Positions 25,701-31,700 of a stretch of DNA of 64,000 nucleotides are shown here, piece after piece. Where the stretch lies: the NCBI RefSeq assembly GCF_964355755.1, contig NC_092675.1, positions 8,404,312-8,468,311 of the forward strand, given 5' to 3'. A program made the position numbers and the translations under genes. The stretch's first letter is position 1. Every line of letters begins with the position of its first letter. This DNA comes from Antedon mediterranea (lineage: Eukaryota > Echinodermata > Crinoidea > Comatulida > Antedonidae). The notes beneath the pieces are model-generated. The model saw only the letters and a list, made by a program, of their open reading frames with translations, did no database searches and was not told the DNA's origin.

Positions 25701-28700
25701 ATCAAAGGAGGTGACGTAGGCTACAGAAAAAAGATGTTATGGTGTGCTATCCCTGCCTCAGCACTAATGTCCTGCCACAGCCTTGGGGTCGTTTCCACAT
25801 CATACGCATTGATGTTGCCGCTTTGTGATGTGGTGGTGGAAAAGGGGGACGTACAATTCTGTGAACCCCAAACACAGTAGCTCGCATAGCTTTAACTCTA
25901 TTTACCATTTCCGACCAGCACGGGATTCGAACCCACGACATTTATGTTGTTAACACGACCCTCAGTTGGATGAGCTAACCGATCATCTTGTTTATAAAAA
26001 AGGTTAATACAAACTTCGTTGCCTAAAAATGACGTTTATGAATATGCATATTTATTTATGACGTAACGATGAATAACGTAATATGAAGCACGTTTAAATA
26101 GACAATTTTCAGCTGTTCAGTCCATTGACACATTTGAGCTGTTTAATGCATTTTCTTGTAAGAAGTTAAAAAACAAAAGTTCAAAAACATAGAAATGCAC
26201 AAATTAGCCTCGAATCATAGAAAAACAAATCAAAGTAGATTAAAATGAAAGCTTCATATTACGTCATTCTAATAGTTACGTCATAAATATGCATTCATGA
26301 GCGACGAACCTAGTAATAAACAAGATGACCGGTTAGTAGTGGATGGAAAATAAGGTTTAACCTAGAAATAATTGCGTACAAAGGTTTTTCAACGTTTTTG
26401 GATTCTACTCTATGTCATTAGTCACAGAAAAAAAGTCCCGAGAAATCGGACCCTCCGAAGGGGTCATTTGAGGTCAAATTAAGTGGAAATTAACATAAAT
26501 TAATTAAAATATCTTAATATCAATCAATCTTAGGCAAACTTTGTGTATTTATCATATGACTAAAGTGAATTCCATTGATCATCTTATTTATCAATAATCA
26601 TGTTACCATAGCAACCGTTGCTATGCGTAACTAAGGAAAATTAAAATAATTAATAAAAAATAGTTATATTGTGTTTGAAATGTTAAAACTGATGAATTAT
26701 GTACTGAGAGATCCCCTTATATCAACACAACATATTGCCACTGGAATAGGAATGTGGTTGCCATGGTAACAATAACAAATAAATAAATAAAATTAAATAA
26801 TTAATAAAATAAAATTTAATGTTTTCAGGTCTATCAATCTTATTCAAAATGTGCATGTGCATTGTTTGTTCATGTGCAATCATATTGATGATAATATTTT
26901 ATAAATATGGCATTACCCTAGCAACCGTAACTAAGGAAAATACAAATAATGAATAAAATACTATAAATAATGTTTAACGATAGTATTTAACTATATAAGA
27001 TTGTAATGACTTACTATAATAGTAACTGCTTTTGAAATGATAATTTACCATCACATGATGATGTTTTGATCAAAACCATTACAATCAAACAGCAGTATGG
27101 CAAGTGGCAGTGGTTACCATCCATTTATTAAAGCATTTTATTCCACATTTAAAATTGAAATTGTATCGCTCTCTTTAACACAGTGTACATTAAAATATAA
27201 CAGATAATTGCATACATACTATTTGGAGAATTTACTTATCATCCTCTAACACCATCAGTTGGATACACTACTCGTCATCACTTTCATCATCATCAATGTC
27301 GCCTTCGATGTCAATTATTGGGCAATTTTCGCATCCTTCTAGCTGGCATGATCCACATGTAGATGTACACTGTAGGCCATATCGTCTGCAGCCACATCGA
27401 GGTGTACCACATCCAGTCTTACAATTGCAATGTATCATTTTGAGCAGATGAGGTGGTGCAGCATCCTCGGTTGTCATTTGTGGAACTAGGCGGTTGTCTT
27501 CTTCCTTCCATCCCCACTCCGATAACACCATATCTGTATCATTCATAGACCATGTCATAATCTGCAAATATACCCTTTGACTATGAAAATCGGTTGCACA
27601 ATCAGTAGGTGGTAGTCTTTCAGGCCCAACAAATGATTTGGAACCAGCAACCTTCTTGTTAAAAATTTTCCTCCTCGAACTTAATAATGTTTCACTGCTA
27701 CTTCCTCCAAAGAGAGCCACCATCGCTTTCCGACCATATTTTTCAATCTTTTTCTTAGTTTGACAATTGGATGTCAAGACTTTGGCACAAGAGCTTAGAA
27801 CTTTATCATCACCAAGCAGCTTTTTAAAAGCTGCCTTCTTTCCAACGCCATATATTCTTGAGGTCGTATCGCATCCTGTAAGGGCATGACAAAACAGGAG
27901 CTTTGAACAAAGGTTAGATCCAAGTGCTTTCTTTAAGGGGATGATATCTGTCGCTTTTGTAGCTGATGCTTTGTCGGATCTAAAAATTATCCTATTCAAG
28001 CTTAGACGGGTATGATGCAAAAGGAGGATAAGAAGGTCTGTATCCTCTCCTATGAGTGTGACTGATTTATTCTTGGCAGCATTAATAGCAGTAGTTGCTA
28101 TGAGAACATCAGCATCACCCGGTGCATGGATGACTTCTACACCTACTGACTCAAGCTCTTTTCCAAGCATGTTGATAAATCTTTGTTTGTTGTTGGTATT
28201 ACTCAAAAATTTCTCTTTCTTTGTGTCAAATACTGTAGATTCGTCAAATTTGACATCTAAGTGGTCAGCTTTTCCACGCCTCAAGTGTGTAACATCTTTT
28301 GTTGTTGGTGTTCCATAGCCATCAAACACTACTATTGTGGATGCATACTTTCTAACTAGCTTGCAATAAGACGTAATAATTTCATGGTATAACTCGCCCT
28401 TCTTCCATGGCAGTCGGTGTATTAAAGAACCTCCATCGAAGACATAGATGTCAGTTTTGGGGACGGCATTTTGACATAGTAATATGTCTGACGATTTCTT
28501 TTGTCCTTGATCAATAATTGCGTGAAGCAATTGCGGCTTGTCTGCTTTCCGGAGCAAATTCTTTCCTTCAAACAATGATGGGGGAAAGGGACTCAGTTCA
28601 AACGTAAGCATTTCTTCCAAAGACAGGCTCCCAGTTTGTGACACAATGAGACATCTTTGAAATAAGAGTCCAGGATCTATAGCCGCAGTCGACTGATTCA

Positions 28701-31700
28701 TTCTAAGACAATTTTGAAAGATAGAGCTGCTATGTTCTCCCAGCCTACGCCCTGATATATATAACCTAAGACAAACATCTATATGGATTTAATTAGCTAA
28801 ATATTATGTTGAGCTATACACTATAGCTTTGTAATGTTATGTTGAAGATATATATTTTATAGGCCATAATTAAATTATAGGGCCTAATTGTATGTAACTT
28901 ACCTTATCTGGATCAGTTGCCTTGATTACTAAAGCACCTTTGAAAGTTTCATCTACGGCAACCAAAGCATTGTCTACGGCAAACAATGCGTCATCCATGT
29001 CAGACACTTCGTAGATGTAACCTGTATAGGACGAGTTCTGGATAGTGGGACAGTTATCGTTTATATCCGTTACATCCACGTGGATTCTTGCAATACCTAC
29101 CCTTTGGTAGTTATCCAATTGTGTTGCCTGATATAAAATACATTTTTTTTTAAAATAAAATAAATATTTAGCATTTTATTTTTATTATTTAGTTTTAACG
29201 AATGATAATGTTTTGTTGATGATAATAATTTTCATAACATTCCTGGCGGCACTGCAACGTTGTTATGTAGTTTTTGTTGGCGGATCATGCTGACCGTATA
29301 GATCAGTTAGTAGGCATGTACATATTCAAGCGATTTGTACGATTATAAGATAACATGGAGCTAGGAATAAGCAGATATATTATAATCATTGTGGTTGAAT
29401 GTATTGATTTTGTCGAGTACTGATAGTATAATAGTAGTAATATTTCGACAATTGAAACTACTATAAAGTAGGATTGATCACCTGAACAACCAAAGGGTTT
29501 AAGTCAGCTCCTGTAACTTCCCAATCAATGGGGCTAGTCATGCTTAACTCACCAGTCGTAGAATTAATTTTGAACTCACTGGTAATGGGATCTCCTAAAG
29601 TAGTTAGAAAAGTATAATAATAAGATAATTTGTTTTAAGATGTTTAAAAGATGAAAATTAATATTTCGCTTTGGAGATTATTGCAGCATTCACTTCTTCT
29701 CTTGGGAAAAAACTATTTTATGCAACAGATTCAAATTATGGAATAGGACCAATCAGGAATTACTGTACATAAGTTACGGAATGAGGAATTTTTCAAATTC
29801 AACAATGGCATTTGCAAAGGTCTCTTCCAAAATAAAGATAAATGAGGCATGATAACACTAACTGGAAAACTACTAACTTAATGAATAGCTAATTGTAGCG
29901 TTGATACCACGATCTTGATCAAATGCGTAAATCTCGTTGGTGTTCCAAGTCGTTTGATTTTCAGCAACAGTAAAGTAGTAATCTTCTGTACTGAATGCCG
30001 GATTCAAATCGTCTTCATCGATTACAGTTACTACCAGTGACATATTTCCACCTGTTTTTGGTTTACCCTCATATTCATCCTGAAGTATAAAGAATAACAT
30101 TCTTGTTTTATTCTCATTTTAGGCAATTGCCAAGGATAAGCACACGTTAATTCATTCACTATCCTTCTCAAAGGTGGTAATCCCGTTTAGAAGATGCTCT
30201 TAGTTGGTTGAAGTAAACTAGACACAATTGAGGTATTGTTGCGATAACTGTTATATTTATATTGACTAAAGCGATATTTATATTGACTAAATGTATTTTA
30301 TAAAATTATAGGCCTATCTGTCAAAGAAAAGATTGTTTGAATGGAAGAATATCAAAATGAATTGATTTCGATTTGAGTGACAGGACTTGATGTATTGTGA
30401 TTGGTTGGTCGGGGAATCAGCACATCCCTAAGTCTACGAATGCGTCACGAATGCATCGATTCCATTATTCAGGTCAAATGTGCAATCTAGTCGCAAATTG
30501 AATGGTTCCTATTCTAATATATTATAACAGCTATTTAAATACCATGGGTTACTATTAAAAGTAGCAAATATAATATCAATAAGGCTTATCTTAAATAATT
30601 CTCACTCACAGAAGCTTGAATAATTAGGTTGTACTCTGGATACTTTTCGAAATCAATGATAGAATTGACCTCTATTATCACATCTAAATTATTACCACGA
30701 ATGATAAATGGTGAATCTTTCTGCCAAAAAAAAAGTAAGAAAACATATTTAAAAGCTTGTTTATAATAATGAATGATATATATGTCTCATATCTGATTGG
30801 AGTAGCGGGCCTACATCATTTATTTTGCAAAACAAACATACTGTATTTTCACTGAACATCGGGCCTCTCAGAATTAATTAGGTTTGATGTTAAATAATTG
30901 GATTATTGTTAAATAAATGTATGTTTAAAATACATTTTCTGTCAATTTTGCAATCGTATATCATTTCTGATTTCTTTTGTCTTTTTTTTACATTGTTGTT
31001 CGACATTCACAGTATAACTTATGGTATATACATTTTACTAATATTTATTAATCATCACCATGATAATGCATTGCTGTAGTGGGTCTATTGTACCTCCTCC
31101 CATATGCTATGATTATGCGCAATGTAGCCCTAAGCAGTATTTTTCTCATTTACATCATAAGCATAGCCTACTGTACCTTAATTTATCACATGGCAATACG
31201 TCGTATAATTATTATATATAAGTATTATCTTATCGTTATTATTATGAAATCTTAATTAAACTTACTGGTTCAATAATTTCATAAACTACTTGTTGATTAT
31301 TTAAGTTATCCTTGTCAGTTGTAGCGAAACTCACATTCTTTAGATCCAATTCTTCTCCTTCTCGGGCAAACTAAAAAAAAGTAAAATTAGATTGCAGAAG
31401 TCATGATTGTGATTTAATAATAAATATTATTGTAATAAAAATACAAAACTTGTTATTCGTATCTAACAATTATTTTGGCTCGATATATCGCCCTCTCGTT
31501 TGTTTGTTTGTTTGTTCGTTCGTTGTTCATCAATTTATTCAACATTATGCCATCCATCGATGATACAGAGACAATTTAGGCATATCGACCGATAATTCTT
31601 GCATTACCTCAAACACAATAGCGGTATTAGGCCAATCGCTAGTGAATGTTGGTCCATTATCATTTTCATCAACTAATTCGAATTTAATGTTCTGCAAAAG

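Follow-up and report, generated by a model that had tools for sequence, protein, structure and literature searches.

The window analysed here is a stretch of 64,000 nucleotides of the genome of the crinoid Antedon mediterranea. Its minus strand carries, at 27268-28701, an uninterrupted ORF of 477 codons, and the plus strand has 27 stops over the same interval. A preliminary description of this DNA had reported the ORF and left its strand unstated; the ORF does exist, and it is on the minus strand. As had also been proposed, it is intronic: the surrounding gene, on the same strand, is cadherin-like, and its neighbouring exons, once spliced and translated, match Pfam Cadherin (E=5e-12). The features of the locus are collected in Table 1.

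Table 1. Features of the ORF and of the transposon fragment that contains it (coordinates of the window).
Feature	Position	Strand	Basis
477-codon ORF	27268..28701	-	codons 1-6, flank; codons 7-477, transposase C-terminus
Fortuitous start: an ATG and the next five codons, all from flanking DNA	28684..28701	-	homology to all other copies ends at 28682-28683
3'-terminal fragment of a 5.5-kb TIR DNA transposon, 5' half missing	26337..28683	-	identity to L014 and L013
FEN1/EXO1-like (XPG/PIN) nuclease core, ~residues 88-324, with H3TH-like GCDTTSRIYGVGKKA	27730..28440	-	profile to EXO1; protein to archaeal FEN1
CXC-type cysteine domain (putative zinc cluster), residues 425-460	27319..27429	-	nine conserved Cys; LIN54 CXC profile match
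3' terminal inverted repeat, ending ...CCATCCACTA	26337..26396	-	same terminus in L013, L014, L015 and L034

The ORF belongs to a single homology block (window 26333-28682) that is 98-99.8% identical to copies on C8, C1, C4 and C11. To loci L014 and L013, the identity of the fragment is 99.8% over 2,350 bp and 99.0%, respectively. This homology breaks off inside codon 7 of the ORF, leaving codons 1-6 outside the repeat. Because these six codons are unrelated flanking DNA, the ATG is a chance occurrence and the genuine protein is much longer. The 5' half of the 5.5-kb element is absent throughout the window, where only the right half is present. The earlier view of a complete protein of 477 residues therefore has to be given up: the ORF consists of a truncated transposase C-terminus and six codons of flank. 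Rather than a free-standing protein, it represents the last third of a transposase of 1,100-1,550 residues.

When the ORF was searched against the host genome (354 Mb in 18 contigs), at least 97 protein matches were obtained over 11 chromosomes, among them copies on other chromosomes with 96-100% identity. At the DNA level, the 3' terminus has nine near-complete matches in the genome. The viral and prokaryotic collections gave no relatives. Complete copies of ~5.5 kb could be delimited at L013 (1730-7249, on C8) and L014 (1743-7284, on C1). Their inverted repeats start 5'-TAGTGGATGG, and TAGTGGATGGAA... is found at both ends of L013, L014 and L034. Analogous 5'-TAG termini are observed in L018, L041/L042 and L043/L044, all complete copies starting 5'-TAG. 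Exact 3-bp TSDs flank seven of the eight complete copies, in four subfamilies: ATA (L013), TTA (L014) and ATT (L034) in the subfamily of the window copy, and TAT (L018), AGA (L041), TAC (L042) and TTT (L043) in more distant ones; L044 is the sole complete copy with a non-matching TSD. Thus, the mobile origin suspected in the preliminary description is borne out by the dispersal of near-identical copies, by the TIRs and by the TSDs. For the window copy, no TSD can be read, since its 5' end is lost and a second TIR element adjoins its 3' end.

This neighbour, at 25975-26336, is a MITE-like element of 362 bp with 21-bp inverted repeats (CTAACCGRTCATCTTGTTTAT, 95%), which directly adjoins the Academ-like fragment at its 3' terminus. 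Beside it, at ~25905-25990 on the minus strand, stands a tRNA-like run (GGTTAGCTCATCCAACTGAGGG ... GGTTCGAATCC), which resembles the head of a tRNA-derived SINE; Rfam gave nothing above threshold on this run. Elsewhere in the genome, at C6:11632017-11648305 (L032, L022 and L023), a copy belonging to the same subfamily has been broken up by later insertions, of up to ~8.5 kb, and now spans ~16 kb. This copy retains ~640 bp that are gone from the other copies.

The residues previously noted in the ORF (D89, D127, D196/D198, D220/D222 and D278, as well as the GVGKKA stretch) are all present. In an alignment of 13 diverged copies (24-47% identity), D198, D220, D222 and D278 show no variation and D127 almost none. 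Position 196 is occupied by E or D in 12 copies and by A in the remaining one, and position 89 is D in each of the 11 copies that reach it. Such conservation across diverged copies argues that the nuclease-like residue pattern is more than chance. When the profile derived from this alignment was compared with all PDB sequences, human EXO1 was the best match (E=4.2e-6) and five EXO1 sequences occupied the top ranks. D127, D196, D198, D220, D222 and D278 align with EXO1 D78, E150, D152, D171, D173 and D225, which belong to the EXO1 active site. The conserved D89 occupies the place expected for EXO1 D30, so that seven carboxylates stand in order. Finally, GCDTTSRIYGVGKKA aligns with EXO1 GCDYLSSLRGIGLAKA, and GVGKKA falls within this helix-hairpin stretch, after the last Asp. 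The family profile was needed to reach this result, the PDB search with the single window sequence giving no match. With the ORF alone, Pfam returned only a sub-threshold 5_3_exonuc_N, and the AlphaFold model built from the single sequence had a pLDDT of 36, too low to interpret. The window protein alone does match archaeal FEN1 (E=3.3e-4). Taken together, the two matches and the register of the carboxylates uphold the assignment of a FEN1/XPG-type nuclease core.

The ten cysteines that had been counted at residues 425-460 are also there. Eight of them are invariant across the 13 copies and a ninth is nearly so, C460 being particular to the window copy. At this tail, the family profile matches the LIN54 CXC domain weakly (E=0.07), and Pfam TCR is reached with E about 0.01 in two of the 13 copies. 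The same Pfam family scores above its cut-off (30.2 bits) in a relative at C9:14395258; a DDE match lies 1.8 kb upstream of it on the same strand. The CXC-type nature of the tail is supported, with nine conserved cysteines forming a putative zinc cluster.

What the intact protein looks like can be seen in relatives that carry one long ORF each, of 1,107 (L017), 1,246 (L020), 1,235 (L021), 1,547 (L027) and 1,524 (L028) residues. In all five, nuclease and transposase share the same ORF. The order of domains in the relatives is a cysteine-rich N-terminus, a DDE-like region, the nuclease and the CXC tail; in L020, the cysteine-rich N-terminus lies partly on a separate overlapping ORF. In the alignment of the DDE-like region, the DNxD and DQ motifs are invariant and IEQ is found in most members, the last DDE acid (E of IEQ) being out of alignment in some. 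A search of the PDB with the profile of this region matched no solved structure. Pfam DUF6589 is above cut-off in L021 and weak in L018 and L027. From the spacing of the acids, a putative DDE fold may be proposed for these relatives. At L021 (1-7406, on C5), the 1,235-residue DUF6589-nuclease-CXC ORF lies in a segment 99.97% identical to L040 (1-7406, on C8), the identity already beginning at the locus edge. This near-identity reflects a very recent movement or duplication.

Considering the state of the window copy, several possibilities may be envisaged. The checkable copies of the same subfamily (L013, L014, L022, L034 and others) all lack the region of the first two DDE acids, the missing stretch corresponding to residues ~128-625 of the L018 protein, or to 259-591 in L022. 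From this loss, they appear as internal-deletion derivatives, which are usual for DNA transposons. Among copies, substitutions in the nuclease-CXC ORF amount to 8 synonymous, 25 nonsynonymous and 2 stop changes, almost exactly the neutral expectation of 22/73/5%. Nothing points to purifying selection on the ORF or to selection that would keep its reading frame. The window ORF differs from the copies in L013 and L014, on other chromosomes, by 1-3 substitutions, which indicates that the window copy is young, and it is because of this youth that the ORF is open. It might nevertheless be imagined that a transposon-derived nuclease-CXC protein has been domesticated by the host and retained for DNA processing, since the ORF has no interruption, retains all of the catalytic residues and possesses an ATG. 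However, the youth of the copy, the neutral pattern of changes among copies and the provenance of the ATG, which comes from chance flank while the 5' half of the element is missing, make this very improbable, and we rejected it. A free-standing nuclease was likewise rejected, the ORF being a transposase C-terminus with six leading codons of flank. In another model, a specialised non-autonomous subfamily without the DDE region would still be spreading, and its FEN1-like nuclease and CXC tail would serve in trans as a processing factor (helper) or inhibitor for related elements. The uniform loss of the first two DDE acids, along with a nuclease-CXC ORF that is open in several copies, would agree with this. 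Nonetheless, the neutral substitutions, the presence in most copies of stops, frameshifts or gaps and the commonness of internal-deletion derivatives leave it hardly any probability. Loss of the DDE region and neutral substitution together identify the window ORF as a decaying fossil; with neither 5' end nor DDE core, the window copy is probably inert.

The lineage of this fossil may be approached through the two kinds of Academ element that have been described. AcademX encodes a nuclease and has TSDs of 3-4 bp; AcademH encodes a helicase and has TSDs of 9-10 bp, the length of the TSD being tied to the encoded enzyme (PMC10045372). The combination of TIRs, 3-bp TSDs and a nuclease, added to a DUF6589 link with a helicase-bearing relative in the same genome, leads us to file the element as AcademX-like. 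This relative, L045 (3569-7725), has a DUF6589 transposase on the plus strand (E=8e-19) and a RecQ-type helicase with DEAD and Helicase_C domains on the minus strand, an arrangement as expected of AcademH. A second DUF6589 match occurs in the genome at C9:8123266. Alternatively, the element would come from another or an unnamed DDE superfamily, whose FEN1-like nuclease would have been gained separately from Academ. In favor of such a scenario, the DDE region of most members is named by no profile, and the comparison with the Academ lineages was made by published description. On the other hand, nuclease-bearing transposase, 3-bp TSD and DUF6589 link together fit the two published lineages, and an independent origin is accordingly unlikely. 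The ORF is thus very probably a stranded 3' remnant of a cut-and-paste DNA transposon of the Academ type (AcademX-like), an assignment resting on published lineage descriptions. The combination of domains had at first been tied to no named family; the window element is instead very probably a truncated member of an already described transposon lineage, not a new family.

In intact relatives, the N-terminal region, like the CXC tail, would hold DNA of the transposon or of the target. The TIR ends would be cut by the DDE region and joined to a target staggered by 3 bp, and the FEN1-like nuclease might trim ends that carry branches or flaps, either in excision or in integration. Trimming of ends at excision and removal of flaps at integration appear about evenly balanced as the nuclease step.

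An orphan-looking ORF can now be given a name, and the case cautions against annotating such ORFs as host repair nucleases. Academ-like elements are present in this genome as several diverged subfamilies with a nuclease and one with a helicase. Hence, the genome offers a usable test ground for the idea that the accessory enzyme sets TSD length (PMC10045372), on which bear the seven exact TSDs of four nuclease subfamilies, all of 3 bp.

Finally, the element may be set beside known systems. As in EXO1, FEN1 and XPG nucleases, the carboxylate constellation stands in order and a GCDxxSxxxGIG helix-hairpin stretch is found; the element's nuclease is, however, very diverged, below Pfam gathering scores, and is fused to a transposase and a CXC tail. 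The tail shares nine cysteines of nearly the same spacing with the CXC/TCR domains of tesmin, TSO1, LIN54 and MSL2 but is a single short copy, of weak profile score, at a transposase C-terminus. No mention of the CXC tail was found in the literature searched, nor did any paper there name Academ together with XPG or FEN1. With AcademH, the DUF6589 transposase domain is common, whereas a DEAD/Helicase_C helicase replaces the nuclease there and the published TSD is of 9-10 bp. With AcademX, the likeness, judged by description, extends to a nuclease accompanying the transposase, to 3-bp TSDs (published, 3-4 bp), to TIRs and to a long element (5.5-7.2 kb), the window subfamily differing in that it lacks the DDE core.
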